DNA of 34,330 nucleotides from Pseudonocardia sp. KRD291. GTDB lineage: Bacteria; Actinomycetota; Actinomycetes; Mycobacteriales; Pseudonocardiaceae. The stretch lies in the NCBI RefSeq assembly GCF_019263595.1, contig NZ_JADQDD010000026.1, positions 1-34,330 on the forward strand, written 5' to 3'. Both the position numbers and the translations under genes were made by a program. Below the pieces are notes generated by a model. It saw only the letters and a list, made by a program, of their open reading frames with translations, searched no databases and had not been told where the DNA came from. Within the stretch, counting starts at the first letter, position 1; each line of letters opens with the position of its first letter. Positions 1,376-28,465 of this stretch are shown piece by piece.

Positions 1376-1393
1376 ATCTACGTTCGCGTTGAT
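1376..1393 (+). promoter_or_regulatory. Operator A, RTYTAC-N6-GTNRAY family
   Basis: ATCTAC-GTTCGC-GTTGAT. This 18-bp inverted repeat matches the sites in front of several other catabolic units here. A TAAGCT -10-like hexamer (1393-1398) shares its last base, and the SDR start codon lies 42 bases downstream of the operator. No good -35 is visible. Likely a repressor site for the SDR gene at 1436. Confidence 0.6.
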
Positions 1394-1435
1394 AAGCTCG
1401 GCGGACTTTGAACCTCGACGATGAGGAGATCGCTG

Positions 1436-2269
1436 ATGTCCGGAGCACTGGAAGGCAGGGTCGCACTGGTGACCGGGGCTGCGCGAGGCCAGGGCCGTAG
1501 CCACGCTGTGCGACTGGCCGAGGAAGGCGCAGACGTCATCGCGGTGGACATCTGCGCGCAGATCGCGTCGGTGGAGATCCCGATGTCTACCCAGGACGAT
1601 CTCGACGAGACCGTGCGCCAGGTCGAGGCTCTGGACCGACGCATCGTCGCGTCGGTCGCCGACGTTCGTGACGGGCTCGCCCTGAGAGAGGCGGTGCAGG
1701 CAGGTGTCGCCGAGTTCGGCCGACTCGACGTGGTGTGCGCCAACGCCGGCGTCTACGCCCTCACCCTTGACGAACCGACCGATCCGGTCGAACGTCGGCA
1801 GTTCTGGCAGGACACCATCGACGTCAACCTCACCGGTGTGTGGAACACCGTCGACGCCGCGGCTCCGGCCATGATCGAGGCCGGGAACGGTGGGGCCATC
1901 GTGCTCACCGCTTCGACGGCGGCGTCGAAGTCGGCCGCGAACCAGAGCCTGGCGATGAACGCCTACACCGCGGCCAAGCACGGCGTCGTCGGCCTGATGC
2001 GCAACTTCGCGGTCGACCTGGCTCCGCACATGATCAGGGTCAACACCGTCCACCCGACAGGCGTCCATACACCGATGGTCGAGAACGAGGTGGTCGAGCG
2101 GTACATGACGGCGAACTCGGGCTTTGCCAAGCTCGTGCAGAACACGCTGCCGGTACCGGCGGTGGATCCGGTGGACATCAGCAACGCGATCGTCTTCCTG
2201 GCCTCCGACGCGGGTCGCTACGTCACCGGTGTTCAGCTGCCGGTCGACGCGGGCTTCCTGGTCAAGTAG
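1436..2269 (+). CDS. Mycofactocin-coupled SDR family oxidoreductase
   Basis: Short-chain dehydrogenase/reductase of 277 aa. The Rossmann glycine motif is TGAARGQG (13-20) and the catalytic residues are S160, Y177 and K181 (YTAAKHG). Between the second beta strand and its helix sits the extra segment of about 30 residues ending in DDLDETVRQVEALDRRI (54-70). That insertion marks the mycofactocin-coupled SDR family, which includes carveol dehydrogenase: nicotinoproteins that hold NAD(H) tightly and pass electrons to mycofactocin. It probably oxidises a secondary alcohol to a ketone. ATG 1436 was chosen because GAGGAG (1423-1428) is correctly spaced; the in-frame ATG at 1421 has no ribosome-binding site. 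It converges on the acyl-CoA ligase at 2320 with a 50-bp gap. It is close in sequence to the SDR at 26641-27462. Confidence 0.88.
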   Translation: MSGALEGRVALVTGAARGQGRSHAVRLAEEGADVIAVDICAQIASVEIPMSTQDDLDETVRQVEALDRRIVASVADVRDGLALREAVQAGVAEFGRLDVVCANAGVYALTLDEPTDPVERRQFWQDTIDVNLTGVWNTVDAAAPAMIEAGNGGAIVLTASTAASKSAANQSLAMNAYTAAKHGVVGLMRNFAVDLAPHMIRVNTVHPTGVHTPMVENEVVERYMTANSGFAKLVQNTLPVPAVDPVDISNAIVFLASDAGRYVTGVQLPVDAGFLVK

Positions 2270-2319
2270 CCCTGACGAGGGCGGCTGGGTACTCGTGCGC
2301 GGCTCCGCAGGATCCGTGC

Positions 2320-4011
2320 TCAGTCCGCGACGGTCGTCAGCGCGGCAAGCTCCTTGCGCAGGTCCACCTTGTTGATCTTGGTGGCGGACATGGGCCACTC
2401 GGACGCGGTCTTGAAATGGACGGCGCGGGGAACTTTGAAGCTTGCGATCTTCCCCCGGCACCAGGCGATGATCTCGTCGGCGTCCAGGGCGACGCCCTGC
2501 TCGATCTCGATGAACGCGACCGGGACCTCGTCGAGCAGGTCGTCCGGCATGCCGACGACCTCGGCGACCCGGATGTGCGGGTGGGTGCACAGGAACGCTT
2601 CAACCTCGATCGCCGGTACGTTCTCGCCGCCTACCTTGAGCATGTCCTTGAGTCTGCCCTCGAAGGAGATGCGCCCGGCATCGTCCATCCGGTACAGGTC
2701 GCCGGAGTGCAGCCACCCCTCGTCGTCGATCGTCGCGGCGGTGCGTTCGGGGTCGCGGTAGTAGCCGTCCATCTGCAGGTACCCGCGAATGAGGATCTCT
2801 CCGATGGTGTGCGGCGGCACATCCTGGCCGGTCTCCGGGTCGATGATCCGTACCTCGACCCCGCTGACGGGCTTGCCGCCGGTGGTCGCGCGGGCCTCCT
2901 GGTCGTCGTCGAGCGGGGACATCGCGTAGTAACCGGACAGCTCGGACATTCCGCATCCGTTGATGTGGGCAGCTCCGGGGAACATCGCCTGGATGCGCCG
3001 GAGGAAGGCCGGGGGCCCGATGAGGCTCAGTGCGCTGACGTTCGGGATCGCGGTCGGATCGAACCCCTTCGCGCCCTCCAGGCCCAGCATCACCGCCTGG
3101 AACCAGGGCCACAGCGAGGTGACGTCGTGCTCGACGATCTGCTCCCACGCGATGTCCGGGCGGAAATGTGAGTCGGTGACGAACGTGCCACCCAGTCCGA
3201 TCGAGGCGAGGAAGACCTGCATGCATGCGATGTGGAACATCGGGGCCGGGCACCAGAACACGTTCCGCTCTCCGAGCGGGACGTTCTCCCTCATCCGGCC
3301 CATGCTCCCGCGTGAGATGGCCTCGTGGCTGATCATGCAGCCCTTGGGATGGGCGGTGGTTCCCGACGTGTACATCACCAGAGCGACGTCGCGGGAGCTC
3401 ACCCGGGCTCTGGCGGTGCTCACGACGGACGGGTCGACGTCGTCCGCGCGGACCAGGAACTCGTCCGGGCCCAGGAAGGGGCCACCTCCCCGGCCGTGCA
3501 GCATGACCAGGTTCCGCAACGCCGGGGCCTCGGCGAACGCCCCCTCACGCGAGTCGGCCGCCTCCACCGAGGCGGCTGAGGGGAGGGCCTCGGTGAGGAT
3601 CCTGCGGAAATCGGTGTGTTCGGCGATGCGGTCCGTAGTCAGCACGACCCGGAGCCGGGCGTGGTCGATGACGTATCCGAGCTCGGCGCTGCGGTAGCGG
3701 GCGTTCAACGGCACGACCACCGCGCCGAGCATGCCGGCACCGAAGAGGGCCTCGGCGAACTCGGGAGCGTTGGGCATGAGTACGCCCACGTGGTCGCCCC
3801 GGCGTACCCCGAGCCCGTACAGCGCCCTGGCCACCCGGGTGGACTTCTCGAGCAGCTCGGCGTAGCTGAGTCGCACCCCCGGGAACGCCAACGCCGTCCG
3901 GTCGGGACACGTGTGCGCCGAGCGGACCAGGAGGTCGGCGATGGGCACGCTCTCGCTGAAGACCACCGGACCTGCGACCGGTCGTGCGTCGTCGGTGCTG
4001 GCGCGCTGCAT
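2320..4011 (-). CDS. AMP-forming acyl-CoA synthetase (FadD-like)
   Basis: ANL-superfamily ligase of 563 aa that activates a carboxylic acid to its CoA thioester through an acyl-adenylate. Motifs: phosphate-binding loop MYTSGTTAHPKG (213-224), GWLHSGDLY with the ribose-binding Asp, the hinge region GRLKDMLKVGGENV, and a C-terminal SATKINKVDLRKEL that carries the catalytic lysine. No transit peptide or membrane segment is seen. ATG 4011 was chosen because GGGAGG lies about nine bases upstream; the frame stays open a further 48 codons but that overlaps the MFS gene. It follows the MFS gene on the same strand after 62 bases, so the pair looks like an uptake-and-activation unit for an organic acid. 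The substrate cannot be named: the fold covers aromatic, alicyclic and fatty acids. Confidence 0.88.
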   Translation of the reverse strand: MQRASTDDARPVAGPVVFSESVPIADLLVRSAHTCPDRTALAFPGVRLSYAELLEKSTRVARALYGLGVRRGDHVGVLMPNAPEFAEALFGAGMLGAVVVPLNARYRSAELGYVIDHARLRVVLTTDRIAEHTDFRRILTEALPSAASVEAADSREGAFAEAPALRNLVMLHGRGGGPFLGPDEFLVRADDVDPSVVSTARARVSSRDVALVMYTSGTTAHPKGCMISHEAISRGSMGRMRENVPLGERNVFWCPAPMFHIACMQVFLASIGLGGTFVTDSHFRPDIAWEQIVEHDVTSLWPWFQAVMLGLEGAKGFDPTAIPNVSALSLIGPPAFLRRIQAMFPGAAHINGCGMSELSGYYAMSPLDDDQEARATTGGKPVSGVEVRIIDPETGQDVPPHTIGEILIRGYLQMDGYYRDPERTAATIDDEGWLHSGDLYRMDDAGRISFEGRLKDMLKVGGENVPAIEVEAFLCTHPHIRVAEVVGMPDDLLDEVPVAFIEIEQGVALDADEIIAWCRGKIASFKVPRAVHFKTASEWPMSATKINKVDLRKELAALTTVAD

Positions 4012-5513: not shown

Positions 5514-5542
5514 ACGCTGACACGGCCTCGGCGCGTTGTCAA
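5514..5542 (-). promoter_or_regulatory. Candidate promoter of the MFS-ligase unit
   Basis: On the minus strand TTGACA (5542-5537) is followed after 17 bases by CAGCGT (5519-5514), about 90 bases before the MFS start. The -35 is perfect, the -10 is poor. Confidence 0.35.
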
Positions 5543-5627
5543 CGCCTTAGTGAGCGCTGCAAAAAATGGTGAGCAGCGGCCTCGCGGGCACGCTGAACGA
5601 CCGGATCTCGGCAGCTCAAGACCCGTG

Positions 5628-5652
5628 ATCGTCAATTAACGATATATTATCG
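5628..5652. promoter_or_regulatory. AT-rich double dyad between BVMO and MFS genes
   Basis: ATCGTCAATTAACGAT (5628-5643) is a 16-bp palindrome with one mismatched pair. It runs into CGATA-TAT-TATCG (5640-5652), which overlaps the BVMO stop codon at 5647-5649. This is the most AT-rich spot in the window. It may be an operator for the MFS unit or a transcription stop for the BVMO gene; the sequence does not decide. Confidence 0.4.
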
Positions 5653-7575
5653 GATCGTGTAGTCGGACAGGTCGAGTTCCTTGGTCATCTGCCAGTACTC
5701 CGCGTTCAGGAACGGCATTACGAAGATGACTCGACCACGCGAGTTGCGGTAGTACGTCTGCATTCCCGGATGGGTCCAGACGGTCCGGTCGTGGGTGTCG
5801 TCCACGAGCTCGTTGTAGGTCGCGGTGACGTCCGCACGCGCATCCAGAGCGCTGATCCCGCGGTCGAACATCGTCGTGATCAGCCCCCGCACATACCGCA
5901 TCTGTACTTCCATGAAGTAGAGGAAGCTGCCGCTGCCGGGGAACGAGTTCGGTCCGCCCAGCATGAAGAAGTTGGGGAAACCCGGAACGGACACGCCCAG
6001 GTAGGCCTTCGGGTTGTCGTCCTCCCAGACCTCGCTCAGCCGTGCCCCGCCGACACCGCGGACGTCGACGCTGGACAGGAACCGCGCGGCGTGGAAGCCG
6101 GTCGCCCAGATGACGACGTCGGCAGGTAGCTCGGCGCCGGCGGACGTGACGATGCCATCGGGTCGTACCTCGGCCACGGAGTCCGTCACCAGGTCGACGT
6201 CGTCGCGGCGGATCGTCGCGAACCAGCCGTTGTCGAGCAGGATGCGCTTGCCGAAGGGTGGGTAGCCCGGCAGCGACTTCTCGATCAGGTCCGGCCGGCC
6301 GGCCAGCTGGTCGGTCAGGTACCGGGTGAAGAACTCGCGGTGCCCGTCGTTGCGGGCGTTGACCGAGCGCTCGGGGTGCTCCCACTCCGGGTCGACCCGC
6401 AGGGCCTCGATCACCTTGTCGCCGAACTGCCAGAACAGCCGGGTCCAGTACCACGCGAAGTACAGCGAGCAGCTCTGCAGCAGGCGGCGCAGCTCGGGGG
6501 TGATGGGCTGCAGGAACTTGTCGAACGGGGCGACCCACTGCGGAGAGCGCTGGACGATCGTCAGGTGACCGACCCGGTCCGCGATCGCGGGCGAGATCTG
6601 CATGGAGCTCGCACCCGCCCCCACGATGACGACCCGCTTGCCGTCGAGGTCCAGGTCCTCGGGCCACTGCGACGAGTGGAACTGCGTGCCGGTGAACGTG
6701 TCGCGGCCGGGCACATCGGGCAACCGCGGCCGGTTCAGCGAGCCGACGCCGGTCAGCACGATGTCGGCGGCCAGGGTCTCCTCGACCCCACCGGTGCGGA
6801 CACGCACGGTCCACTTGGTGCGATCCTCGTCGTAGGTCGCCGAGAGAACCTCGGTGTTGTACCGGACGCGCTGGTCGGCGCCGAGATCCTTCAGCGTCTG
6901 CGCGAAGTAGCGCTGGATGTCGTCACGCAGCTCGAAATGCTTGCCCCAGTCGTTGCGGGCGAACGAGAACGAGTACAGGTGGCTCGGGGTGTCGACACCG
7001 GCACCGGGATAGGTGTTCGTCCACCAGACCCCGCCCGCGTCGGGCTGGCGTTCCAGGATCTCGTAGTCGACTCCCATGTCCTCGAGCTGGTGCGCGGCAG
7101 CGAGGCCCGCCACCCCGGTGCCGATCAGAAGGATCTTGAAGCCCTCCGGGGCGTGCACCGGCGGCAGCGCGAGCTCGGGCTGGTCGGGGTCGATCCGGCG
7201 GGCGACCTCGGAGGCCAGCATCTCGCCCTGCTCGACACCCACCGGCTCGCCCATGCAGACGCTCATCATGCGCGCGGTCAGTTCGGGGGAGGGAGCGGTG
7301 ATCGCCGGCCTCTCGCCGTCCTGTATCCGGAGCACGACCCCCACGGAGGCCTCGCGGATCTCCGCCTGTACCGGCTCGGGGAGGCCGCCGGAGTCGTGGT
7401 CGACCAGGCCCTTGCCACGGGTGGGGAGGTACGGGGCGGCGAGCCAGCGCTCATCGCCGCTGAACTGGAAGAGCACCATGAGCAGGCTCGGCACGTTCGC
7501 GACGTCGACGGCGGCGCGCACCTGTTCCTCGGTCATCCGCTCGGTCGTGGCACCCGTGGCGGTGGGGTCGTCCAT
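5647..7575 (-). CDS. Baeyer-Villiger monooxygenase, 4-hydroxyacetophenone monooxygenase-like
   Basis: Flavoprotein monooxygenase of 642 aa using FAD, NADPH and O2 to convert ketones to esters or lactones. An N-terminal extension of about 140 residues precedes the FAD fold, as in 4-hydroxyacetophenone monooxygenase (about 640 aa). Motifs: FAD-binding GTGVAG (152-157), the BVMO fingerprint FTGTQFHSSQWP (294-305, a full match to FxGxxxHxxxWP), the NADPH-binding GAGASS (319-324), and ATGFH later on. ATG 7575 has AGGAGG four bases upstream. Downstream of the acyl-CoA carboxylase by 94 bp on the same strand, it may be the last gene of the ligase-carboxylase transcript or have its own promoter. The ketone substrate is unknown; the family takes aryl and cyclic ketones. 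Confidence 0.9.
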   Translation of the reverse strand: MDDPTATGATTERMTEEQVRAAVDVANVPSLLMVLFQFSGDERWLAAPYLPTRGKGLVDHDSGGLPEPVQAEIREASVGVVLRIQDGERPAITAPSPELTARMMSVCMGEPVGVEQGEMLASEVARRIDPDQPELALPPVHAPEGFKILLIGTGVAGLAAAHQLEDMGVDYEILERQPDAGGVWWTNTYPGAGVDTPSHLYSFSFARNDWGKHFELRDDIQRYFAQTLKDLGADQRVRYNTEVLSATYDEDRTKWTVRVRTGGVEETLAADIVLTGVGSLNRPRLPDVPGRDTFTGTQFHSSQWPEDLDLDGKRVVIVGAGASSMQISPAIADRVGHLTIVQRSPQWVAPFDKFLQPITPELRRLLQSCSLYFAWYWTRLFWQFGDKVIEALRVDPEWEHPERSVNARNDGHREFFTRYLTDQLAGRPDLIEKSLPGYPPFGKRILLDNGWFATIRRDDVDLVTDSVAEVRPDGIVTSAGAELPADVVIWATGFHAARFLSSVDVRGVGGARLSEVWEDDNPKAYLGVSVPGFPNFFMLGGPNSFPGSGSFLYFMEVQMRYVRGLITTMFDRGISALDARADVTATYNELVDDTHDRTVWTHPGMQTYYRNSRGRVIFVMPFLNAEYWQMTKELDLSDYTIR

Positions 7576-7669
7576 CTGTCCTCCTAGCTGGTGGCGGTGA
7601 TCGCCTCGGTGCGTTCCGCCGGCTGCGCGTTCGGTCGGGCGCCGACGTGGTCGGCGGTGTGTGGCGTGA

Positions 7670-10600
7670 TCACCATGTGTCGATCCGTCTCCGCGCCGGG
7701 ACCTGCTCCGCGGGATCGTGGGTGGCGAGGGTGTTACGGATCCAGGCGCGGGTGTCGGCCGGGTCGATGACGTCGTCGAGCTCGAAGACCGATGCGGTGT
7801 TGACGGCGCTGCCCTGGGCGACGTAGTCGGCGAGCAGTTCCTCGTAGCGCTCGCGCCGGCTCTCCGGGTCCGTGATGGCATCGAGCTCGCGGCGGTAGCC
7901 CAGCGTGACGGCGCCCTCGGGCCCCATGGCGCCGAACTCGGCCGTCGGCCAGCCGACGATCGCGTTCGGCACGCGGAAGCTCCCGCCCGCCATGGCCTGG
8001 CCGCCGAGTCCGTAGGCCTTGCGGACCACCACGGTGCACAGCGGCACGGACAGGTTCGGAGCGGTCACGAACAGCCGGCCGAAATGCCGGACGCCGCCCG
8101 CCAGCTCCGCGTCCGGACCGACCAGGAACCCGGGGGTGTCGCACAGCGACACGACCGGGAGGCCGTGCGCGTCGCAGAGCTGCAGGAACCGGGCCATCTT
8201 GTCCGCGGTGTCGCTGTCCAGGGCGCCGCCGCCGCGGGCCGGGTCGTTCGCGACGAGACCCACGGTCGCGCCCTCGATCCGGCACAGCGCGGTGAGCACG
8301 GCACCGCCGAACCCCCGGCGCAGCTCCAGCACCGAGCCGGTGTCGCAGAGGACGTCGACCAACTCGCGCACCTCGTACACGCGGTGTCGGTTCTCCGGGA
8401 CGACGTGGCGCAGCAGCCGCTGGTCGGCGCAGGCCCAGTCGGTGACCGAGCCCTGGAAGTAGGACAGGTAGCGGCGCGCGACGGCGGCGGCCTCGACCTC
8501 ATCGGTGACCGCGACGTCGACGACGCCGTTGCGCACCTGGACCTCCAGCGGCCCGATCTCCTCGGGCGCGAACCGGCCCAGTCCACCGTGTTCGATCATG
8601 GCGGGACCGCCCATACCGAGGTTGACGTCCTCGGTGGCGATCAGCAGCTCGCAGGCGCCCGCGAGCGCGGCGTTGCCGGCGAAGCAGCGGCCCGATGCGA
8701 CGGCGACGGTGGGCACCAGCCCGTTCAGCCTTCCCAGGGCCACGAACGTGCCGAGGTCCATGCCGGTGGCCTTGGCCGCGTTGTCGACGTCACCGGGCCG
8801 GCCGCCGCCGCCCTCGGCGAACACCACGACCGGAGTCCGCCTGCGAGCCGCCACCTCGAACAACCGCTCGGCCTTCTTGTGCATCTGCACGCCCTGCGTG
8901 CCCGCCATGACCGTGTAGTCGTGGGCGAGGACGGCCACGGGATGACCGTGGACCCGCCCGAAGCCGGCGACGAGACCGTCGGCGGGAGTGGTGAGCTCGA
9001 GTTCCGCGACCGGTCGCCGGGTGCGCTGGGCGGCGATCACGAGGGCGCCGTACTCCTGGAACGCCACGGCTCCGTGCGCCGCCGCATCGTTCACCGGCAC
9101 CTCGGCGTCGCAGACGGCCGCGACGTTCTCCCGCGCCGTCCGCTTGCCGAGCCGGCGCCGCTTCGCCACCGCGTCCGGACGGTGTTCGTCCCGGCCGCGC
9201 TCGTGGCGCCACCGCACGTCGGCGAGATCGGTACGCACGTGGCCGGGATCGACCGCGACGGGCGCCTCGTCGGCCGGATCGGCGTCGGGCGCGGGTCGCA
9301 GCTCGGCGACGACGTCGCCCTCGGCGACCACGTCGCCGATCGCCGGCCGCACGGCCAGCAGCGTCCCGGACACCGGCGCGACGATCTCGTGCTCCATCTT
9401 CATCGCCTCGACGACGACGATCGGCTCGCCCCGCCGGACACGCGTGTCCGACGTACCGGGCACCGCGACGACCGTCCCGGAGATACCCGAGCGAACGGTC
9501 GCGGTGTTCGCGCCGGAGGGCTCCGGCGGCAGATCGCGCAGGGCGTCGGCCCAGGCTGTGGTCGCCTGCCCCGTGCGCAGCTCGGATCGTCCCAGCAGAT
9601 CGCGCAATCGGGCCAGGTCCGTGGGCATGCCCTCGATGGTGAACGCGGCGAGCGCGGCGTCCAGGGCATCGATCGCGACGGCGAGGTCACCGCCGCGGTC
9701 CCGGGTGATGACCTTGGCCAGGAGCGGGTCGTAGGCCGTGGCCACCGATCTGCCCTGCTCGGCGTGGGTCTCCACGCGCACCCCCGGGCCGGTGGGCGGC
9801 GTGAACCGGGCGAGTGGGACGGCGGGCCCGCCGGTGAGGGTGACCCGGGCCTCGACGGCGACCCCGCCCGGTGCGAGGTCCCCACCTGCGTGCGCGACGT
9901 TCAGCTCGGCGAGCGGGATGCCCTCGGCGACGGCGATCTGCGCCGAGACGAGGTCGATCCCGAGGACCTCCTCGGTGACCGGGTGCTCGACCTGCAGCCG
10001 CGGGTTTACCTCGAGGAACCGGTGCTCGCCGGTGTCGGCGTCGACCAGGAACTCGACGGTGGCCAGCCCGGCCAGGCCGACGTGCACGCCGATCCGCCGG
10101 GCCGCCTCTGCGAGGCGTTCCCGGGTCTCACCGGGCACGGTGACGGCCGGCGCGATCTCGATCATCTTCTGGTGCCGGTGCTGCACGCTGCAGTCCCGGT
10201 CGCTGAGGGTCACGACGTCGCGGCCGTCACCGAGCAGCTGCACCTCGATGTGCCGGGCGCGGCGCAGGTAGCGCTCCAGATACACGCCCCCGCGACCGGA
10301 GGTGCGGCCGGCCTGGGCGCGGCAGCGGGCCAGCGCGTCGGGCAGTAGGTCCGGGTCGCCGACCACGCGCATGCCCCGGCCGCCGCCGCCCGAGCGCGCC
10401 TTGACCATCACCACGGCGCCCGGTCCGAGCCCGCGCGCGAACGCGACCGCCGCGGCGTCCGAGAGCTCGTCCTCGGTGGTGGCCACGAGCACCGGCACAC
10501 CGAGTGACACCGCCAGCTCCCGGGCCGCGGTCTTGTCCCCGAGCAGTGCCAGGACCTCGGGCGAGGGACCGACGAACGCGATCCCCCGCTCGGCGCAGCG

Positions 10601-19128: not shown

Positions 19129-19205
19129 TATCGGTTCCCACTGGGTGTCGGTCGACAGAACCTGGATCGCCTGCGGCGGTGCACTCTCGCGCGGTTACAT
19201 GGGCG

Positions 19206-19329: not shown

Positions 19330-19830
19330 ATGATCGATCTCGAACCGACTACAGGGGATCCGGTCCAGCTGCGCCGTGCGTACGGGTGCTTCCCCAGCGG
19401 GGTCACCGCGATCTGCGCACTCGACGGCAGCGGGACCCCGGTGGGTATCGCCGCGAGCTCGTTCACCTCGGTATCGGTGGAGCCCGCGCTCGTGTCCGTG
19501 TGCGTGCAGAACTCCTCCACCACCTGGCCGCGTCTGCGTGGCCTGCCTCGACTCGGGGTGAGCGTGCTGGCCGAGGAGCAGAACGCGGCGGCGCAGCGCC
19601 TGGCGACGAAGGAGGGGGACCGCTTCGCCGAGCTCGACTGGGTCAGCACCGATGATGGCAGTGTCCTGGTCGAGGGCGCTGTGGCGTGGCTGGACTGCTC
19701 GATCCATGCCGAGGTGGCCGCCGGCGATCATGAGATCGTCCTGCTGGCGATCCACGCGGTGCGCGCCGACCCGGACCGCGCTCCGCTGGTGTTCCACGGC
19801 AGCCGCTTTCGCCAGCTGGCGGCGGTCTGA
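19330..19830 (+). CDS. Flavin reductase (HpaC/split-barrel family)
   Basis: A 166-aa NAD(P)H:flavin oxidoreductase-like protein with the FMN-binding split-barrel signature: RRAYGCFPSGVTAICA (15-30), VGIAASSFTSVSVEPALVSV (38-57) and GDHEIVLLAIHAV towards the end. Such enzymes supply free FMNH2 or FADH2 to a separate monooxygenase. Here the likely clients are the three luciferase-like monooxygenases downstream. ATG 19330 follows AAGGAG at good spacing. Its stop overlaps the RibBA start by one base (TGATG, 19828-19832), so the two are translationally coupled. Expression should follow the promoter and operator at 19206-19234. Confidence 0.88.
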   Translation: MIDLEPTTGDPVQLRRAYGCFPSGVTAICALDGSGTPVGIAASSFTSVSVEPALVSVCVQNSSTTWPRLRGLPRLGVSVLAEEQNAAAQRLATKEGDRFAELDWVSTDDGSVLVEGAVAWLDCSIHAEVAAGDHEIVLLAIHAVRADPDRAPLVFHGSRFRQLAAV

Positions 19831-20969
19831 TGGACACGATCGGGACGGCGATCGCCGCGGTCGCCGCAGGACGACCGGTGGTGGTCGTCGACGACGAGGA
19901 CCGCGAGAACGAGGGCGACCTGATCATCGCGGCCGAACTGGTCGACCCCGCCACGATGTCGTTCCTCGTCCGGCACACCTCGGGATTCGTCTGTGTGGCG
20001 CTACCGCAGGACGAGTGCGAACGGTTGGCGCTGCCGCCGTTGCACCACAGCAACTCCGACAGCTTCGGTACGGCCTACCGGGTGACCGTCGATGCCGTCG
20101 ACGGAGTCTCGACCGGCATCTCCGCCCGCGACCGGGCGAGCACCGCACGCCTGCTCGCCTCCGCCTCGACCCTGCCCGCGCAGCTGTCGCGGCCGGGGCA
20201 CGTCGTGCCCCTCGCCGCACGGAGCGGTGGCGTTCTGGAGCGTGGCGGCCACACCGAGGCCGCGGTCGACCTGACCCGGTTGGCGGGGCTGCGCCCGGCC
20301 GGCGTGCTCTGCGAGATCGTCAGTGTTCGCGATCCGGGGCGGATGGCGCAGCGCGACGAGCTCGTCGACTTCGCCACCGAGCACGACCTGCCCATCGTCA
20401 CCATCGCCGACCTGGCACGGCACCGGCGGGCGACCGAGCAGCCGGTCGAGCGGGTGGTGACCACGGGCCTGCCCACGTCGGCCGGTAACGGGCGAACCGT
20501 GGGCTACCGAGCCAGCGGCACCGGCGCGGAGCATCTGGCCTTCGTCACCGGAGACATCGCAGGGGCCCGGGATGTCCCGGTTCACGTGCACGTCGAGTGC
20601 CTGCTCGGCGATGTGTTCGGATCGCTGCGCTGCCGCTGTTCCGGCGATCTCGACACCGCGATGCGCGAGATCACCGCCACCGGTCGCGGCGTCGTGGTCT
20701 ACCTGAGACCGGGAACCCGCAGCCCGTTGCTCGCCCTGCAGGAGCAGGACGCCCAGGTGAGTCGCCTCGACGGCCGCGCCGACATCGCGTGCACTCCCTT
20801 CACCCCCGCGGACGCCGCCGTCACCACCGCGATCCTCGCCGATCTCGGCGTCGGATCGGCCCGCCACCTGCACAACTCGCTCTCCGTCCAGACCGCTCTG
20901 TGCGCCCGCGTGCCCGATGCGGCAGCGACGGCCGGCTCGGAGGCCCGGCCGTCGGGAGCGGTCGCCTGA
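19830..20969 (+). CDS. ribBA: RibBA: 3,4-dihydroxy-2-butanone 4-phosphate synthase with degenerate GTP cyclohydrolase II domain
   Basis: A 379-aa two-domain riboflavin-synthesis protein. The RibB half (about 1-198) is intact: acidic loop DDEDRENEGD (21-30), RHTSGFVCV, DGVSTGISARDR, RPGHVVPL and HTEAAVDL (141-148). It would make dihydroxybutanone phosphate from ribulose 5-phosphate. The RibA half (about 210-365) keeps the zinc cysteines C257, C268 and C270 but has PGTRSPLL (294-301) where active enzymes read QEGRxIGL. The AYxLQD and LGFxxDxRDY segments are also missing, and LHNSLSVQ stands in for LLTNNPxK. GTP cyclohydrolase II activity is therefore doubtful. Coupling to a flavin reductase and LLM monooxygenases suggests a dedicated boost of flavin supply rather than the housekeeping rib gene. 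Confidence 0.88.
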   Translation: MDTIGTAIAAVAAGRPVVVVDDEDRENEGDLIIAAELVDPATMSFLVRHTSGFVCVALPQDECERLALPPLHHSNSDSFGTAYRVTVDAVDGVSTGISARDRASTARLLASASTLPAQLSRPGHVVPLAARSGGVLERGGHTEAAVDLTRLAGLRPAGVLCEIVSVRDPGRMAQRDELVDFATEHDLPIVTIADLARHRRATEQPVERVVTTGLPTSAGNGRTVGYRASGTGAEHLAFVTGDIAGARDVPVHVHVECLLGDVFGSLRCRCSGDLDTAMREITATGRGVVVYLRPGTRSPLLALQEQDAQVSRLDGRADIACTPFTPADAAVTTAILADLGVGSARHLHNSLSVQTALCARVPDAAATAGSEARPSGAVA

Positions 20970-21015
20970 TGACAGTTCCGCGTCTCGACCTCGACGACAG
21001 CGAGGAGATCTCCCG

Positions 21016-22170
21016 GTGAAATTCCACCTGATGCAGACCGGCGTCATCGGCCGTCGCCACGAGCTCGAGGCGGGGATGGCCGGGCAGCGCCCCGAGCTCT
21101 ACCAACGGTTCCTCGAGGAGATGAAGGGCTACGTGCAGCTGGCCGACGAGCTGGGGTACGAGTCCTACTGCTCGCCGGAGCACCACCTGCAGATCGAGGG
21201 CTTCGAGATCACCAACCACCCCGGGATGATGGGACTGTTCGTGGGTTCGCACGCCAAGCGGCTCAAGGCCGGGCTGCTCGGCTACGTGCTGCCCACACAC
21301 AACCCGGTCCGCGTCGCCGAGGAGATCGCGACGCTGGACCACATGCTGCAGGGCAGGCTCATCGTCGGTTTCGCCCGCGGCTACCACGCCCGGTGGGTCG
21401 ACGCCTACGCCGCGATCCGCGGCAGCGGGGCGACCAACGTCGCGCACGCCAAGGCCAAGGACGAGCAGGACGCGGTCAACCGGGAGATCTTCGAGGAGTC
21501 GGTCCAGGTCCTGAAGAAGGCCTGGGAGAACTCGACGTTCAGCCACAAGGGCAAGTACTGGCAGTTCCCTCCCGAGGACGGCTCCGTCGGACACCCGGGT
21601 TACGCGGAGTTCGGCGCGGGCCAGGACGAGAACGGCATCGTCCGCGAGATCGGCATCGCGCCGCGACCGTTCCAGAACCCGCACCCGAGGATCTACGGAC
21701 AGTTCGCCTACAGCATGCGCACGGTCGACATGTGGGCCCGTGAGGGCGGCAAGCAGGTCGTGTTCGCCAACGACATGGACTTCTGCGAGGCCCTCTGGAA
21801 CCGCTACGCCGAGACGGCCAAGAAGGCAGGCCGCGACGTCCCGCGCGAGGAGATCGGCGCCTGGGGCGGGTTCCTCATCCTGACCGACAGCAAGGAGGAG
21901 GCCCAGGCGCTCGAGGCCGAGCACCGCTGGTTCTGGGACAAGTGGTTCATCCCGCACGGCCAGCAGTTCCCGAACGTGCTGATCGGTACCCCGGACGACA
22001 TCTCGCGCCAGATCGAGCAGGCCCACGACCGGCTCGGCTTCAACGAGTGCTTCCTGATGTTCGGCCAGGGCCACCTCGAGCCGCAGCGGCAGAACGCCGA
22101 GCTCGTGCGCTTCGCCGAGGAGGTCGCTCCCCGTTTCGCCACGAAGGACGCCGCCGGCGGCTTCGTCTGA
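21016..22170 (+). CDS. LLM class flavin-dependent oxidoreductase 1
   Basis: A 384-aa bacterial-luciferase-like protein, a TIM-barrel monooxygenase class using FMNH2 or F420. Typical segments are ADELGYESYCSPEHH (about 41-55), TNHPGMMGLF, LPTHNPVRVAEEIATLDHM (about 95-113) and GRLIVGFARGYHARW. Because a flavin reductase and RibBA lie directly upstream (46-bp gap), FMNH2 is the likelier cofactor. Length is close to that of limonene 1,2-monooxygenase and of the type II BVMO/alkane-type LLM proteins, but no substrate can be read. The start is GTG 21016 with GAGGAG eight bases upstream. It diverges clearly from the other two LLM proteins in this window and so is not part of their recent duplication. 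Confidence 0.87.
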   Translation: MKFHLMQTGVIGRRHELEAGMAGQRPELYQRFLEEMKGYVQLADELGYESYCSPEHHLQIEGFEITNHPGMMGLFVGSHAKRLKAGLLGYVLPTHNPVRVAEEIATLDHMLQGRLIVGFARGYHARWVDAYAAIRGSGATNVAHAKAKDEQDAVNREIFEESVQVLKKAWENSTFSHKGKYWQFPPEDGSVGHPGYAEFGAGQDENGIVREIGIAPRPFQNPHPRIYGQFAYSMRTVDMWAREGGKQVVFANDMDFCEALWNRYAETAKKAGRDVPREEIGAWGGFLILTDSKEEAQALEAEHRWFWDKWFIPHGQQFPNVLIGTPDDISRQIEQAHDRLGFNECFLMFGQGHLEPQRQNAELVRFAEEVAPRFATKDAAGGFV

Positions 22171-22201
22171 CCCGCAGCAACCACACCGGAGGAAGGCAAC
22201 G

Positions 22202-22606
22202 ATGCCCAGTACCGAGGACAACAAGGCCGCCGTCACCGCGTTCCTGGAGATCTTCTCCGCGGGCGACGTGGAGAAGACCCTCGCGGCGCTGAGTGACGAC
22301 GTGACGTGGTGGGTGTCCGGGAAGCTCGACGGGATGTCCGGCTCGTACGACAAGGCGGGTTTCGGGGCGCTGATCGGGGGGGTGGCCGACGTCTACGTCG
22401 AGCCGCTGAGGGTCACCCCGCTCTCGATGGTCGCCGAGGGCGACAAGGTCGCGGTCGAGGCCGACTCCTACGCCGAGCTCAAGGACGGCCGGGTCTACGA
22501 CCCGCGCTGTCACTTCCTGTTCCAGGTCGCTCCCGACGGCCGGATGGCCGTCGTGCACGAGTACCTCGACACCAAGCACGCCTACGACACCTTCTTCGCG
22601 TCGTAG
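22202..22606 (+). CDS. Small SnoaL-like / ketosteroid-isomerase-like protein
   Basis: A 134-aa NTF2-fold protein: NKAAVTAFLEIFSAGDVEKT (about 7-26), LSDDVTWWVSG, then GDKVAVEADSYAEL and VVHEYLDTKHAYDTFF at the end. The layout is that of SnoaL/KSI proteins and of limonene-1,2-epoxide hydrolase, and its position between two LLM monooxygenases would suit an epoxide hydrolase. However, the Arg/Asp arrangement of that enzyme is not clearly kept, so I do not assign the activity. ATG 22202 follows GGAGGAAGG. It is 31 bp after LLM 1 and 97 bp before LLM 2, on the same transcript. Confidence 0.8.
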   Translation: MPSTEDNKAAVTAFLEIFSAGDVEKTLAALSDDVTWWVSGKLDGMSGSYDKAGFGALIGGVADVYVEPLRVTPLSMVAEGDKVAVEADSYAELKDGRVYDPRCHFLFQVAPDGRMAVVHEYLDTKHAYDTFFAS

Positions 22607-22703: not shown

Positions 22704-23810
22704 ATGGAATCCGGACTCATCCACATCCCTTACATGCGCCCCGAGCGCAGCTCACGGCAGACGTTCGACTGGGCGCTGGCCAACGCCCGTGAGGCTGACA
22801 AGGCCGGCTTCACCGAGTTCATGGTCGCCGAGCACGCGACCCAGAAGTGGGAGTGCATCCCGACCCCCGAGCTGGTGATCGCCGCGGCGGCCGTGCAGAC
22901 CGAGCGGATCAAGTTCGCGCCGATGGCGCACCTGCTGCCCCAGCACCACCCGGCCGCGCTGGCCATCCAGGTCGGCTGGCTGTCCCAGATCCTCGAGGGC
23001 CGCTACTTCCTGGGCATCGGGGCCGGCGCCTACCCGCAGGCGGCCGAGCTGCACGGCATCACCGACATCTCCACCAACCCCGCCCGCGTGCGGGAGTCGC
23101 TGGAGATCATGGAGCGGATCTGGAAGCGCGAGCCCTTCCACTACGAGGGCGAGTACTGGAACGCCGGCTACCCGGCCGAGCTCGACGACGGCAAGGGCCA
23201 CGACGACCACAAGATCGCCGACTACAGCCCGTGGGGCGGCAAGCTCGACATCGCCGTCACCGGGCTCAGCGTGAACTCCCCGTCCATCCGGTTCGCCGGC
23301 GAGCGCGGGTTCATGCCGGTCTCGATCTACTCCGGGTCGTCGATCCTCAAGACCCACTGGGAGACCTACGAGAAGGCGGCGCTGGCCAACGGCCACACCC
23401 CGGATCGCAGCAAGTACCACGTCTCGCAGACCGTGTTCGTGGCCGAGACCGACGCCGAGGCGAAGAAGCTCGCGATGGAGGGCGGCATCGGGTACGCCTT
23501 CGAGCGCTACCTGTGGCCCATCTGGGAGCGCTTCGGAATGCTCGAGGGCTACATGAAGGACGTCGGTGCCACCAAGGCAGACGTCGACCTCGAGTGGATC
23601 TGCGACAACGTCTGGGTGGTCGGCTCCCCGGAGACGGTGATCGAGAAGCTGAACAAGCTCTACGAGTTCACCGGCGGCTGGGGCGTGCTGCAGGTCGAGA
23701 CCCACGACTACATGGACGATCCGTCCCCCTGGTTCCAGTCGCTGCGGCTGCTCGCCCAGGAGGTCGCCCCGAAGATCCAGCTCCCGTTCGGCGTCTCCGC
23801 CGGAAGCTGA
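22704..23810 (+). CDS. LLM class flavin-dependent oxidoreductase 2
   Basis: A 368-aa luciferase-like TIM-barrel protein. Segments: ADKAGFTEFMVAEHAT (31-46), FAPMAHLL (71-78), LAIQVGWLSQILEGRYFLG (86-104), and a late VVGSPETVIEKL typical of LLM proteins. It aligns without gaps to LLM 3 (25169-26284) over the first 110 residues with about 71 identities by hand count, so the two are paralogues from a local duplication. It probably hydroxylates, epoxidises or Baeyer-Villiger-oxidises a substrate with FMNH2 from the upstream reductase. ATG 22704 follows CAGGAGAG. A very strong hairpin begins seven bases after its stop, separating it from the alcohol dehydrogenase. Confidence 0.88.
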   Translation: MESGLIHIPYMRPERSSRQTFDWALANAREADKAGFTEFMVAEHATQKWECIPTPELVIAAAAVQTERIKFAPMAHLLPQHHPAALAIQVGWLSQILEGRYFLGIGAGAYPQAAELHGITDISTNPARVRESLEIMERIWKREPFHYEGEYWNAGYPAELDDGKGHDDHKIADYSPWGGKLDIAVTGLSVNSPSIRFAGERGFMPVSIYSGSSILKTHWETYEKAALANGHTPDRSKYHVSQTVFVAETDAEAKKLAMEGGIGYAFERYLWPIWERFGMLEGYMKDVGATKADVDLEWICDNVWVVGSPETVIEKLNKLYEFTGGWGVLQVETHDYMDDPSPWFQSLRLLAQEVAPKIQLPFGVSAGS

Positions 23811-23890: not shown

Positions 23891-25018
23891 ATGAAGACCA
23901 GAGGCGCGATCCTGCGTGAGATCCCCGGCCGGTTCGAGGTCGTCGAGCTCGACCTCGAAGGGCCACGACGTGGGGAGATCGTCGTCCGTGTCGCGGCGTC
24001 GGGGATGTGTCATTCCGACGACCACGTCGCCACCGGCGACCTGCCGTCGGAGACGTTGCCGACGTGCGGCGGACACGAGGGCGCCGGCGTTGTCGTCGAG
24101 GTCGGCCCGGACACCCCCGGCTGGGCGGAGGGCGACCACGTCGTGCTCTCGTGTCTGCCCAGCTGTGGTCGCTGCCGCTGGTGCGCGGTCGGCATGGGCA
24201 ATCTCTGCGATCTGGCCGCGAACCTGCTCCGCGGCGCCAGGTTCGAGGACCCGACCAGCTTCCGCATGTCCCTCGACGGGCGTCCGGTCGGACAGTGGTG
24301 CGGCATCTCGACGTTCTCCGAGTACACGACCGTCGGCGTGAACTCCGCAGTCAAGATCGACCCGTCCATCTCGCTGGAGGCCGCCTGCCTCGTCGGATGC
24401 GGTGTGAATACGGGGTGGGGGTCGGCGGTCAATATCGCGCAGGTGCAGCCCAACGACACCGTGATCGTCATGGGGATCGGCGGGATCGGTGCGTTCGCCG
24501 TGCAGGGGGCGGTGCACGCCGGCGCGGCGAACGTCATCGCTGTCGACCCGCTCCCGTTCAAGCGGGAGATGGCCGAACAGGTCGGCGCCACGCACACCGC
24601 CCCGGACATGGAGCAGGCCACCGAGCTGGCCCGCTCGATGACGAACGGTCAGGGCGCGGACAGCGCGATCATCACCGTCGGCGTGCTCGATCCGGACTAC
24701 GTCCGACAAGCCTTCGCGTCCATCCGGAAGGCGGGATCGTGCGTGGTGACCTCGCTCGGTCCGTCCACCGACTTCGGGGCCCCGATCTCACTGTTCGAGC
24801 TGACGCTCTACCAGAAGCGTCTGCTCGGTTCGATGTTCGGCGGCGTCGCGCCGATGCGAGACATCACCAAGATGCTCGAGCTCTACACCGCGGGCCGGCT
24901 CAAGCTCGACGAGATCATCACGACCACCTACACGCTGGACCAGATCAATCAGGGTTACTCGGACATGCACGCAGGCCGCAACGTCCGCGGCGTCATCACG
25001 TTCGACACCGCCGCCTGA
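23891..25018 (+). CDS. NDMA-dependent (mycofactocin-linked) alcohol dehydrogenase
   Basis: Zinc-containing medium-chain dehydrogenase of 375 aa. The catalytic zinc ligands include C40 (GMCHSDDH) and H62-E63 (GGHEGAG); the structural zinc cysteines are C92, C95, C98 and C106. GCGVNTGWGSAVN and the Rossmann GIGGIGAFAVQG follow. The whole matches the actinobacterial nicotinoprotein alcohol dehydrogenases assayed with N,N-dimethyl-4-nitrosoaniline, whose bound NADH is reoxidised through mycofactocin. It would oxidise an alcohol intermediate. ATG 23891 follows GGAG by about five bases; the frame is open far upstream, but only as a shadow of LLM 2. The hairpin at 23817-23859 lies just 31 bases before it, so its expression may be uncoupled from the genes upstream. 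Confidence 0.88.
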   Translation: MKTRGAILREIPGRFEVVELDLEGPRRGEIVVRVAASGMCHSDDHVATGDLPSETLPTCGGHEGAGVVVEVGPDTPGWAEGDHVVLSCLPSCGRCRWCAVGMGNLCDLAANLLRGARFEDPTSFRMSLDGRPVGQWCGISTFSEYTTVGVNSAVKIDPSISLEAACLVGCGVNTGWGSAVNIAQVQPNDTVIVMGIGGIGAFAVQGAVHAGAANVIAVDPLPFKREMAEQVGATHTAPDMEQATELARSMTNGQGADSAIITVGVLDPDYVRQAFASIRKAGSCVVTSLGPSTDFGAPISLFELTLYQKRLLGSMFGGVAPMRDITKMLELYTAGRLKLDEIITTTYTLDQINQGYSDMHAGRNVRGVITFDTAA

Positions 25019-25168
25019 GCGCAGCCGCGAGGCCGTCGCCGGCCCGCTTCCCATCGATCCAGGAGGTTCCGCCGGTCACCTTCCGCGTCCGTGTCGACGC
25101 CCCCGGCCAAGCCCCCGATACCTGCACGAGTCATGACGACTTCCCGCGTTCATTGGAGAGCACAGGAT

Positions 25169-26284
25169 ATGAAGAGTGGCATCTTCCACGTCCCGTACAT
25201 GCAGCCGCGGCGGAACCCGCGCGAGGTGTTCGACTACTCCGTCGAGATCGCCCGCGAAGCCGACCAGGCCGGCTTCGCCGACTTCATGGTCGGCGAGCAC
25301 GCCACCCAGGCATGGGAGAGCGTGCCCACCCCGGAAATCGTGATCGGGGCCTGCGCCCGCGAGACCGAGCAGCTGCGCTTCGCGCCGATGGCCCACCTTC
25401 TCGGCCTGCACAACCCCGGCTCGCTTGCCATCCAGGTCGGGTGGCTGTCTCAGGTCCTGCAGGGCCGCTACTTCCTGGGGGTGGGGCCGGGCGCGTACCC
25501 GCGGGACGCCCAGCTGCGTGGTCAGCCCGCGGACCTGTCCGAGGCTCGTCCCCGACGTGACGAGGCGCTCGAGATCATGCAGAAGGTGTGGGAGCGCGAG
25601 CCCTTCCACTTCGAGGGCAAGTTCTTCAAGGGCGGGTTCCCCGAGCACAGCGTCGTCGAGAACCCGGAGGACGAGTTCCATGTCATGCCGGACTTCGCCC
25701 CGTGGAACGGCGCGGAGAATCTCGAGATCGCCATGACCGCGCTGTCGTACAACTCGGCCACCATGAAGTACGCCGGAAGCAAGAACTTCTCGCCGATCTC
25801 CTTCTTCGGCGGGATGGAGGTCGGCAAGTCGCACTGGGCACAGTATGAGGCGGGGCAGCGGGAGAACGGGTTCACACCGGACCGCAACCGCTTCCGGATG
25901 TGCCGCGACATCGTCGTCGCCGACACCGACAAGGAGGCCAAGCGCATCGCCCTCGAGGGTGGCCTCGGCGTGTGCTGGGAGAAGTACCTCGTCCCGGTCT
26001 ACAAGGAGTTCAAGATCCTTCAGGGCTACATCGACGACTCCGGGACCGGGATCGACATCAACGACCTGACCATGGACTGGATCGCCGAGCACGTCTGGAT
26101 CTGCGGCTCCCCGGAGACCGTGACCGAGAAGCTGCAGAAGATGAACGACGACATCGGCGGCCTGGGTCAGATCGTGATGAACACCCACGACTACATCGAT
26201 GACCCCAAGCCCTGGATCGAGTCGATGCACCGCATCGCCAAGGAGGTCGTGCCGAACGTCAAGGACGTCGTCGCTACCGCCTGA
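25169..26284 (+). CDS. LLM class flavin-dependent oxidoreductase 3
   Basis: A 371-aa luciferase-like protein, paralogue of LLM 2: ADQAGFADFMVGEHAT (31-46), FAPMAHLL (71-78), LAIQVGWLSQVLQGRYFLG (86-104), CGSPETVTEKLQKM near the C-terminus. It differs from LLM 2 after the middle, for example HVMPDFAPWNGAENLEIAMT in place of the DYSPWGGKLDIAVTG stretch, so the substrates may differ. ATG 25169 was chosen because GGAGAG lies upstream and the sequence aligns from its first residue with LLM 2. The 150 bases before it hold no gene or clear hairpin. A strong terminator follows its stop. It is the last gene of the flavin-centred run. Confidence 0.88.
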   Translation: MKSGIFHVPYMQPRRNPREVFDYSVEIAREADQAGFADFMVGEHATQAWESVPTPEIVIGACARETEQLRFAPMAHLLGLHNPGSLAIQVGWLSQVLQGRYFLGVGPGAYPRDAQLRGQPADLSEARPRRDEALEIMQKVWEREPFHFEGKFFKGGFPEHSVVENPEDEFHVMPDFAPWNGAENLEIAMTALSYNSATMKYAGSKNFSPISFFGGMEVGKSHWAQYEAGQRENGFTPDRNRFRMCRDIVVADTDKEAKRIALEGGLGVCWEKYLVPVYKEFKILQGYIDDSGTGIDINDLTMDWIAEHVWICGSPETVTEKLQKMNDDIGGLGQIVMNTHDYIDDPKPWIESMHRIAKEVVPNVKDVVATA

Positions 26285-26640: not shown

Positions 26641-27462
26641 CTACTTGACGTTGAACCCGGCGTCGACCGGCAGGGTCACCCCGGTGACGTAACGGCCGTC
26701 GTCGCTGACCAGGAACAGGATCGCGTTGCTGATGTCGACCGGGTCCGTGAGACCGACCGGCATCAGGTTCGCTGCCATCTGCCCGGCCTGCGGGTTCTCC
26801 TGCAGGTAACGGCCCACGACGTCGTTCTCGACCATCGGCGTCGCCACACCGGTCGGGTGCACGGTGTTCACCCGGATGTTGTGCGGGGAGAGCCAGTTGG
26901 CGAAGCTGCGCATCAGTCCGACGACGCCGTGCTTGGCTGCGGCGTACCCGAGGGCACCCCCGGAGCCGTCGGCGCCGCGCCCGGAGAGCCCCTGCGTCGA
27001 ACTGGTCAGCACGATCGCGCCACCGGCGTCACGGTCGATCATGTCCTGAGCGGCTACGTAGACGGTGTTCCACACCCCGATCAGGTTGACCCCGACCACG
27101 TCGAGGAAGGCCCGCTCCGGATCCTTCTCGACACTGCCGAGCTGACAGATCCCCGCGTTGCCCAACACGATGTCCACCGGCCCGAGCTCGGCGACCCCGG
27201 CCCGGTACGCGGCCTGCACCGCAGTGAAGTCACGGACGTCGGCCTTCGCGGTGTGGATGCGGCGGTCCAGCGCCTCGACCTGCTTGACCGTCTCGTCCAG
27301 ATCGGACTGCGTGGCCATCGGGTAGTCGACCGTGTCGATGTCGGTGAGCCAGTCCACCGCGATGATGTCGGCCCCCTCCTGGGCCAGGCGGATCGCGTGA
27401 CTACGTCCCTGGCCGCGTGCTGCGCCGGTGATCAGCGCGACCTTCCCGTCGAGCTTGCCCAT
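26641..27462 (-). CDS. Mycofactocin-coupled SDR family oxidoreductase
   Basis: A 273-aa short-chain dehydrogenase with TGAARGQG (12-19), the family-specific insertion ending SDLDETVKQVEALDRRI (53-69), and catalytic Y173/K177 with a serine at 154 or 155 (VLTSSTQG). It shares long identical stretches with the SDR at 1436-2269, for example the GVVGLMR and RVNTVHPTGV regions and the closing PVDAGF. Like that protein it should be a nicotinoprotein that oxidises a secondary or cyclic alcohol and hands electrons to mycofactocin. ATG 27462 follows AAGGAGA at seven bases. It is divergent from a TetR gene, with a 15-bp dyad (27514-27528) between them that may be the TetR binding site. Confidence 0.88.
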   Translation of the reverse strand: MGKLDGKVALITGAARGQGRSHAIRLAQEGADIIAVDWLTDIDTVDYPMATQSDLDETVKQVEALDRRIHTAKADVRDFTAVQAAYRAGVAELGPVDIVLGNAGICQLGSVEKDPERAFLDVVGVNLIGVWNTVYVAAQDMIDRDAGGAIVLTSSTQGLSGRGADGSGGALGYAAAKHGVVGLMRSFANWLSPHNIRVNTVHPTGVATPMVENDVVGRYLQENPQAGQMAANLMPVGLTDPVDISNAILFLVSDDGRYVTGVTLPVDAGFNVK

Positions 27463-27577: not shown

Positions 27578-28330
27578 ATGGCCGCCAGTGCTTCCCGCCC
27601 GCGCAGGGACCAGCTGCGCAATCGCGAGGCGCTGATCACGGCGGCGAAGGAGGTCTTCGCCGAGCGCGGGCTGGAGGCGCCGCTGGACCTGATCGCGCGG
27701 AGGGCGAGGCTGAGCAACGCATCGCTCTACCGGCATTTTCCTCGCCGGGAGGACCTCGTGGTCGGGGTTCTGCTGCAGAACCTCGCACGGGCCGAGCGGG
27801 CGCTGGCCGAGGCGCTGGCCCGGAGGGACGGGTGGGCAGGCTTCGTGCACTACTTCAGCTGGCTGTTCACCGAGCAGATCGACAACCCCGCTTACCTCGG
27901 TGCGTTGCGTGCGGTACCTGCCGGTCACAGCGTTCCGGTCGACCGGATGCGCGACAAGCTCTTCACGGAGCTCGAGGAGCTGATCGCACGCGCGAAACGC
28001 CATGGGGGATTCCGTCCCGACCGCTGGCTGGAAGACGTCTTCCTGTACCTGGCTCTGAACGAGCACCTCGCGCAGGGATACAGCGACCCGCACAGTGCCT
28101 CGCAGCGCTTCCTGGAACTTGCCCTGTCGGCTCTGCGCTCGGACGAGGCGGAGCAGTCGGTGTCCGGGCGGTCGACCACGGAGGAGCCCGACGAGGTTGT
28201 GGCGTTGCGTCGGACCCTGGGGCACGAGATCGCCGGACTGCCGCTGGCGGACGGTGCCCGACGACGAGACTCGGCGGCAGAGCCTGTCGATCCGTGCCAA
28301 GGGTCGGGTTCGGATCCCGAACCCGGTTGA
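27578..28330 (+). CDS. TetR family transcriptional regulator
   Basis: A 250-aa TetR-type repressor. The DNA-binding domain is at about 14-60: RNREALITAAKEVFAERGLE (14-33), then LDLIARRARLSNASLYRHFPRREDL (36-60). The ligand domain follows to about 195; the last 50 residues are polar and low in structure, longer than usual. ATG 27578 was taken because the conserved domain starts soon after it, although the ribosome-binding site is weak; upstream in-frame starts would overlap the divergent SDR promoter. A lone ATCTAC half-site is at 27562. It probably controls the divergent SDR gene and itself, and possibly the alcohol dehydrogenase downstream. Confidence 0.84.
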   Translation: MAASASRPRRDQLRNREALITAAKEVFAERGLEAPLDLIARRARLSNASLYRHFPRREDLVVGVLLQNLARAERALAEALARRDGWAGFVHYFSWLFTEQIDNPAYLGALRAVPAGHSVPVDRMRDKLFTELEELIARAKRHGGFRPDRWLEDVFLYLALNEHLAQGYSDPHSASQRFLELALSALRSDEAEQSVSGRSTTEEPDEVVALRRTLGHEIAGLPLADGARRRDSAAEPVDPCQGSGSDPEPG

Positions 28331-28389
28331 CGCAGACCGCATCGGCTGTGCCTCCCTGGCGTCGATGCCTGCTTCACTCGACCGCTGAT

Positions 28390-28407
28390 GTTAACGCACG
28401 CGTAGAC
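28390..28407 (+). promoter_or_regulatory. Operator F, first site before the alcohol dehydrogenase
   Basis: GTTAAC-GCACGC-GTAGAC, one departure from the RTYTAC-N6-GTARAY inverted repeat. A TAGACT hexamer (28403-28408) overlaps its right arm and could be the -10, but the -35 is poor. The start codon is 118 bases downstream. Confidence 0.5.
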
Positions 28408-28447
28408 TGATTTGTCCGGTACGACGTCCGAAGATGGCCCCGGTTTC

Positions 28448-28465
28448 GTTTACGGCAACGTTGTG
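28448..28465 (+). promoter_or_regulatory. Operator-like site G, second site before the alcohol dehydrogenase
   Basis: GTTTAC-GGCAAC-GTTGTG has a perfect left arm but three departures in the right arm. It is 40 bases downstream of operator F, a spacing near four helical turns. Confidence 0.35.

Follow-up and report, generated by a model that had tools for sequence, protein, structure and literature searches.

A conserved palindrome in a camphor-like catabolic cluster of Pseudonocardia sp. KRD291 and the TetR protein predicted to bind it

Described TetR systems and the Pseudonocardia locus

KstR2, a TetR repressor of steroid ring degradation, acts over a CoA-ester catabolic regulon and has the operator consensus ANCAAGNNCTTGNT. 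Here we analyse a 34,330-nucleotide stretch of Pseudonocardia sp. KRD291 ("the window": bases 1-34330 of contig NZ_JADQDD010000026.1, our contig C179, in a genome of 6.57 Mb and 525 contigs), in which a palindrome, RTYWAC-N6-GTWRAY, recurs in the gaps between catabolic genes; its copies are very probably operators of one TetR-type repressor, which we call TetR1 (16518-17219, plus strand), serving a camphor-like degradation cluster. TetR1 has a TetR_N helix-turn-helix (PF00440, E 9e-15) and a TetR_C_24 domain (PF17932, E 7e-18), with the recognition helix GTDRAAIYYYF. KstR2 is a solved relative (PDB 4w1u/4w97, E about 3e-18), but its recognition helix reads ILSGSLYHHF where that of TetR1 reads TDRAAIYYYF, and the consensus given above has 0 matches in the window. 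Passages of PMC1995591 describe for the TetR protein KstR a single palindrome that recurs throughout a catabolic regulon and overlaps promoter elements, and in these respects the motif described here is alike; however, in the KstR core given there, TnnAACnnGTTnnA, AAC and GTT stand 2 bp apart, whereas here the arrangement is AC-N6-GT, and that core also has 0 matches in the window. We therefore reject operators of the KstR or KstR2 type, and the motif is, as the original prediction had held, unlike either.

A further comparison is with the CAM plasmid of Pseudomonas putida, for which passages of PMC6027186 describe CamR together with the uncharacterised TetR regulators CamS, CamU and CamV; there, TetR genes stand alongside diketocamphane monooxygenase genes and expression is induced by camphor and its intermediates, a likeness that we draw by description. 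No Pseudomonas record was among the 30 plasmids found with LLM2, the luciferase-like monooxygenase (LLM) of the window that is related to 3,6-diketocamphane 1,6-monooxygenase (22704-23810, plus strand; PDB 4uwm, E 3.9e-162). In the Pdc cluster of Caenibius tardaugens, a TetR gene has a Baeyer-Villiger monooxygenase (BVMO) and an LLM as neighbours, as here, and the authors suggest that its product is a possible repressor; the passages of PMC12239570 give no operator. We sought a tie between the motif and this progesterone cluster by way of Novosphingobium aromaticivorans pNL2 and found nothing: no pNL2 record was among the listed plasmid matches to TetR1 (E <= 1e-20), and two pNL2 stretches (98 kb), in which Saro_3709 was not located, hold no clear TetR1 homologue and no site. 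Among the titles listed, no described regulator-motif pair of this kind was found in the literature; the mechanism proposed below is ordinary in itself.

The motif and its linkage to TetR1

The original prediction listed nine inverted repeats of the form RTYTAC-N6-GTNRAY, and all nine 18-mers read as claimed, with no departure from RTYTAC-N6-GTARAY at 18815 and 19212, one at 1376, 14013, 15523, 15661 and 28390, two at 19111 and three at 28448. The listed pattern matches seven of the nine exactly on one strand and, with up to two mismatches, occurs 84 times in the window against 32.6 +/- 7.3 in 100 dinucleotide shuffles. A weight matrix built from the nine places its own training sites at ranks 1 to 9, which is partly circular, but matrices built with each site left out in turn still rank that site 3 to 12. 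Matches scoring at least 14 were not as frequent in coding DNA as in gaps, which make up 11.4% of window positions: ten lie in gaps (the nine training sites and one at 19193) and one, at 20580, falls inside a RibBA-like gene and was set aside. Among 1000 mirror-permuted matrices the mean was 0.13 matches of any kind, and none reached nine in gaps. RTYWAC-Nk-GTWRAY has five copies in the window at k = 6, the remaining spacings between k = 0 and k = 20 giving none, and the half-sites are mostly GTTTAC or ATCTAC.

Across the genome the GTNRAY pattern occurs at 34 distinct exact places, seven in the window; many of the 27 others resemble codon pairs by eye, and we therefore rejected it for genome-wide use. 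The palindrome with one mismatch allowed has 39 places, seven in the window, and its reversed control 16. RTYWAC-N6-GTWRAY is sharper, with eight places in 6.57 Mb, five in the window, and one for its reversed control, and is thus the better motif. Of these eight copies, seven are either in the window or no more than 8 kb from the closest paralogue of TetR1: two of the three outside copies are on contig C379, 4.5 and 7.5 kb from the paralogous gene, one between enoyl-CoA hydratase and BVMO genes and the other between LLM and SnoaL genes, both in divergent gaps of the BVMO-LLM-SnoaL cluster that carries the paralogue. The third (C2:28537) may be background.

The same association is seen within the genus, where a TetR1 orthologue (at least 78%) is present in 6 of 60 genomes (G000, G001, G029, G031, G076 and G081). 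All six have two to three exact copies of RTYTAC-N6-GTARAY on the TetR1 contig, and only there is the motif clustered; ten of the other 54 genomes have one to three isolated copies, no two within 100 kb. RTYWAC-N6-GTWRAY has 8, 6, 2, 4, 7 and 4 copies in the six, as compared to 0, 0, 1, 0, 1 and 0 in six genomes chosen without an orthologue, and the reversed control pattern gives 0 or 1, once 4, in those twelve.

A search of genome_contigs with TetR1 yielded 22 loci, of which 21 (L049-L069) hold matrix matches of at least 13; the other, L070, has a TetR1 match of only 53 residues and no matrix match at that score. The nearest named match is a Pseudonocardia metagenome-assembled contig (L058) with a TetR1 97% identical. 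For counting we took 25 loci, namely the window, L049-L057, L059-L069, the plasmid loci L075-L077 and the genome's own paralogue locus (L100), dropping the near-duplicate L058 and the short 3.6-kb loci; their TetR1 homologues are about 35-100% identical and come from actinobacteria and from alpha- and beta-proteobacteria. The exact motif is present in 25/25 (73 copies in 485 kb), against a mean of 0.2 copies in 20 dinucleotide shuffles and none in 19 control loci (292 kb), which comprise 11 loci of other TetR genes (27-34% identical), L070, five plasmid loci fetched for LLM2 and the two pNL2 stretches. The spacing is equally restricted: at k = 6 there are 5 copies in the window and 28, 16 and 16 in close, mid and distant loci, whereas no other k between 0 and 20 gives more than 3 in any group. 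Distant loci have fewer genes in common with the window, yet keep the TetR1 homologue and the motif.

Two further comparisons bear on this linkage. When stretches were widened, the exact motif was found at 6 of 10 TetR genes with a DRA-type recognition helix (one or two each; 11 copies in 171 kb) and at 0 of 10 other TetR genes (193 kb), a test that is only partly fresh: in their short form six of the ten DRA loci had given no exact match, one genome contributes two adjacent DRA loci, and the ten control stretches are all longer versions of controls counted above. The reverse comparison, starting from the catabolic gene, rests on plasmids because LLM2 (E <= 1e-80) was confined to its own genome in a phylum sample of 396 genomes: the five plasmid loci fetched for LLM2 have neither the motif nor a TetR1 match above 26%, and Sphingobium xenophagum pSH1, found by both the TetR1 and the LLM2 plasmid searches, has a TetR1 homologue and the motif.

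Several points weigh against TetR1 as the repressor. Most loci were chosen for holding TetR1, the paralogue locus was fetched once its sites were known, and the reverse comparison took 5 of the 30 plasmid records with LLM2 relatives. Four of the ten DRA-helix loci are without an exact site (one on a 6.9-kb contig); among short loci (1.5-kb flanks) only one of seven relatives at 33-41% identity has a copy (L036); and L116, a control locus whose TetR is 29% identical and has an NRA helix, has no site, unlike the NRA-helix loci L064 and L068, which hold exact ones. Within the window no site lies upstream of TetR1 itself, a promoter scan reported no promoter around 19212, 28390 or 1376, and the -10 proposed at 19212 matches three of six consensus positions. 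From the sites with their spacing and conservation, their association with TetR1 homologues and the promoter geometry described below, we nevertheless infer that a TetR1 dimer would bind RTYWAC-N6-GTWRAY and shut down the promoters of a cluster for the degradation of bicyclic, camphor-like monoterpenoids, and that a pathway compound, perhaps an acyl-CoA thioester, would release it. The idea of one TetR-type repressor for the whole pathway, put forward from the window alone, thereby gains support, as the motif tracks homologues of the 16518 protein across phyla. An actinobacterial camphor-like pathway would thereby have a named regulator, a DNA code and targets, and the recurrence of the same protein-signal pair in distant bacteria makes it directly testable; the motif could help to locate more BVMO/LLM catabolic clusters and could serve as an inducible switch.

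It is unlikely, in our judgement, that the sites are instead read by another regulator of the window, either TetR2 (27578-28330, plus strand), which had been named with TetR1 as a candidate, or a GntR/FCD protein absent from the original prediction (31903-32553, minus strand). The sites at 28390 and 28448 come directly after the TetR2 gene, and TetR2 relatives (E <= 1e-20) occur in five of the six TetR1 genomes and none of the six others, a further point that weighs against TetR1, since co-occurrence does not separate the two proteins. Outside its own genome, however, these relatives are only 33-41% identical, bar one 72% copy with an internal stop codon (G029), and none shares a contig with TetR1; G081 has TetR1 and four exact motif copies but no relative at this threshold, and the TetR2 recognition helix, LSNASLYRHF, differs from that of TetR1. 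On the helix and the G081 pattern we rejected TetR2 as the likeliest reader and favour TetR1. TetR2 is also absent from most relatives' loci, but this carries little weight because those loci span 10 kb on either side of TetR1 and TetR2 lies 10.4 kb off; it is possible that TetR2 is a second regulator travelling with the pathway. For the GntR/FCD protein, a search of the 11 other same-genus genomes yielded no relative at E <= 1e-30.

Slightly less probable again is an unlinked regulator that reads the sites while travelling with these clusters by chance. Linkage is not binding, and the DRA-helix loci without an exact copy would be in keeping with such a protein, but distant loci with fewer shared genes still have both TetR1 homologue and motif, and the contig bearing the paralogue has motif copies of its own. 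That the sites reflect promoter hexamers (TTGAC) or arise by chance is very improbable and is contradicted by the spacer comparison, for although the half-site variant GTTGAC overlaps a -35 hexamer, enrichment is seen at the 6-bp spacing only, shuffles all but lack the motif, and the site at 19111 (ATCTAC..GTAAAC) contains no such hexamer.

Proposed operators, promoter geometry and a possible half-site specificity

With TetR1 as the probable repressor, the sites can be graded individually. Seven of the nine are strong, the one at 19111 is moderate, the one at 28448 is at noise level, and the copy at 19193 was missed by the original prediction. All nine count as gap matches, but two reach into the longest versions of adjacent open reading frames (ORFs). 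The first of these, 14013-14030 (minus strand), touches the longest possible start of a ligase ORF (14018), for which codon usage prefers a start at 13985; its counterpart elsewhere is found only in the near-identical L058. It stands at the head of a minus-strand run of ligase, ligase, carboxylase, BVMO, major facilitator superfamily (MFS) and ligase genes that probably form one operon. The BVMO and MFS genes have no strong copy of their own, as predicted, which fits one operon read from 14013. The MFS gene is preceded by a degenerate operator remnant (5538-5555, minus strand), likewise missed by the original prediction, that is intact in Saccharopolyspora spinosa (intact counterpart at L054:3707). 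The second, 28448-28465 (plus strand), falls within the longest version of an alcohol dehydrogenase ORF (28412) and, with a leave-one-out score of 9.0 (rank 12), is not supported as an operator. The same zinc alcohol dehydrogenase gene (about 28487-29470) is preceded by the operator at 28390-28407 (minus strand).

Elsewhere, 1376-1393 (plus strand) lies upstream of a short-chain dehydrogenase/reductase (SDR) gene of the mycofactocin-coupled type (1421-2269), whose counterparts in L049, L051 and L052 are preceded by tandem operators in 19-bp steps. Two operators, 15523-15540 and 15661-15678 (both plus strand), lie upstream of SnoaL1-ECH1, the former overlapping a promoter-like TTGACC-N18-TAAACT on the minus strand; L056 and L059 also have sites upstream of SnoaL1. 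The site at 18815-18832 (plus strand) is upstream of the minus-strand crotonase gene ECH2.

Three plus-strand copies precede the flavin reductase gene: operators A (19111-19128), B (19193-19210) and C (19212-19229). Operator A is weak when left out of its own matrix (score 11.4, rank 11), but seven relatives have an intact site at the aligned position, and operator B, which begins 19 bp before C in tandem with it, is conserved in part, its right half overlapping a TTGACA hexamer. The first 17 bases of C form the spacer of TTGACA-N17-TAGCTT and its last base opens the -10. In eight flavin-reductase upstream regions, C is exact in 8/8, A in 7/8 and B in 4/8, with GTTGAC kept in 8/8, and TTGACA-N17-TANNNT surrounds C in all eight (TTGACG in L053). 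The overlap of a palindromic operator with promoter elements, a trait of the TetR family, is thus found here at both the spacer and the -35. Because C fills the hexamer spacer and B overlaps the -35, TetR1 bound to B and C would exclude RNA polymerase from this promoter, and steric repression is the simplest reading of the geometry.

Autoregulation appears to vary among relatives, since TetR1 in the window is without a site of its own and matrix matches occur a short way ahead of TetR1-type genes in L050 (second copy), L055, L056, L057 and L067 (gene positions in L050, L057 and L060 were judged from homology).

A recognition helix of the form D/N-R-A-x-x-Y-Y-Y is found in 26/26 aligned TetR1-type rows, and the half-site varies with residue 72: position 4 is T in 53/66 half-sites with Ala and A in 69/80 with Ser/Thr, and position 3 is C in 80/80 with Ser/Thr and 34/66 with Ala. 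The two half-site types amount to a testable specificity rule, but the correlation may reflect a single evolutionary event: the motif itself restricts position 4 to A or T, close relatives were each counted separately, and the Ala group may form a single clade. We offer only tentatively, then, the suggestion that TetR1 founds an undescribed cross-phylum DRAxxYYY subfamily for BVMO/LLM ketone-lactonising pathways, with A72 setting the operator; if so, TetR1 and the C379 paralogue would operate in the genome as two insulated copies. A Rhodococcus ruber plasmid (L075) has two exact sites, at 1070 and 1171, about 8 kb away from its TetR1 homologue; they are flanked on one side by an acyl-CoA dehydrogenase gene and on the other by a hypothetical gene that adjoins an AtuA-family gene. 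The subfamily may have a role in acyclic terpenoid pathways as well.

A different palindrome, RTCTACC-N4-GGTAGRY, was seen at C486:22681 of the same genome, about 50 bp ahead of the match (C486:22751) to a further TetR gene, and two relatives have it too (G067 C1:3653620 and G071 C1:1217618); it is possibly the operator of that gene's product.

Catabolic genes of the cluster

Downstream of operators A-C are the flavin reductase (PF01613), RibBA-like, LLM1 and SnoaL3 genes, assigned by Pfam (19330-22606, plus strand). Besides LLM2, a second diketocamphane-monooxygenase relative is encoded (LLM3, 25091-26284, plus strand; 4uwm, E 2e-109), the LLM at 20917 being more distant than either. On the minus strand are an enzyme of the single-chain long-chain acyl-CoA carboxylase type (7670-11011; 4rcn, E 3.5e-277) and a type I BVMO (5647-7881 as the longest ORF, the true start probably lying further in), and the window also codes for three acyl-CoA ligases, two crotonases and three SnoaL-fold proteins. 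At 1421-2269, 23891-25018 and 26641-27462 lie the genes for two mycofactocin-coupled SDRs and an N,N-dimethyl-4-nitrosoaniline-dependent alcohol dehydrogenase, and the alcohol steps may thus depend on mycofactocin.

Diketocamphane monooxygenase together with flavin reductase, a trait of camphor clusters, is present here by sequence, and judged by its gene families the locus looks like a diketocamphane-type (camphor-like) catabolic cluster, with a gene set resembling that for ring lactonisation, CoA activation and branched-acid carboxylation in camphor breakdown. A P450cam-type hydroxylase can belong to such a cluster; no cytochrome P450 was found in the subset of window ORFs scanned, and the cluster may be truncated at the ends of the contig. 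Instead of camphor, a different bicyclic terpenoid could be the substrate. Near the far end of the window, an ORF at 30555-31913 (plus strand) joins a BVMO-like FAD/NAD-binding N-terminal part to an IstB (IS21) C-terminal part, and is probably a BVMO gene broken by an insertion element.

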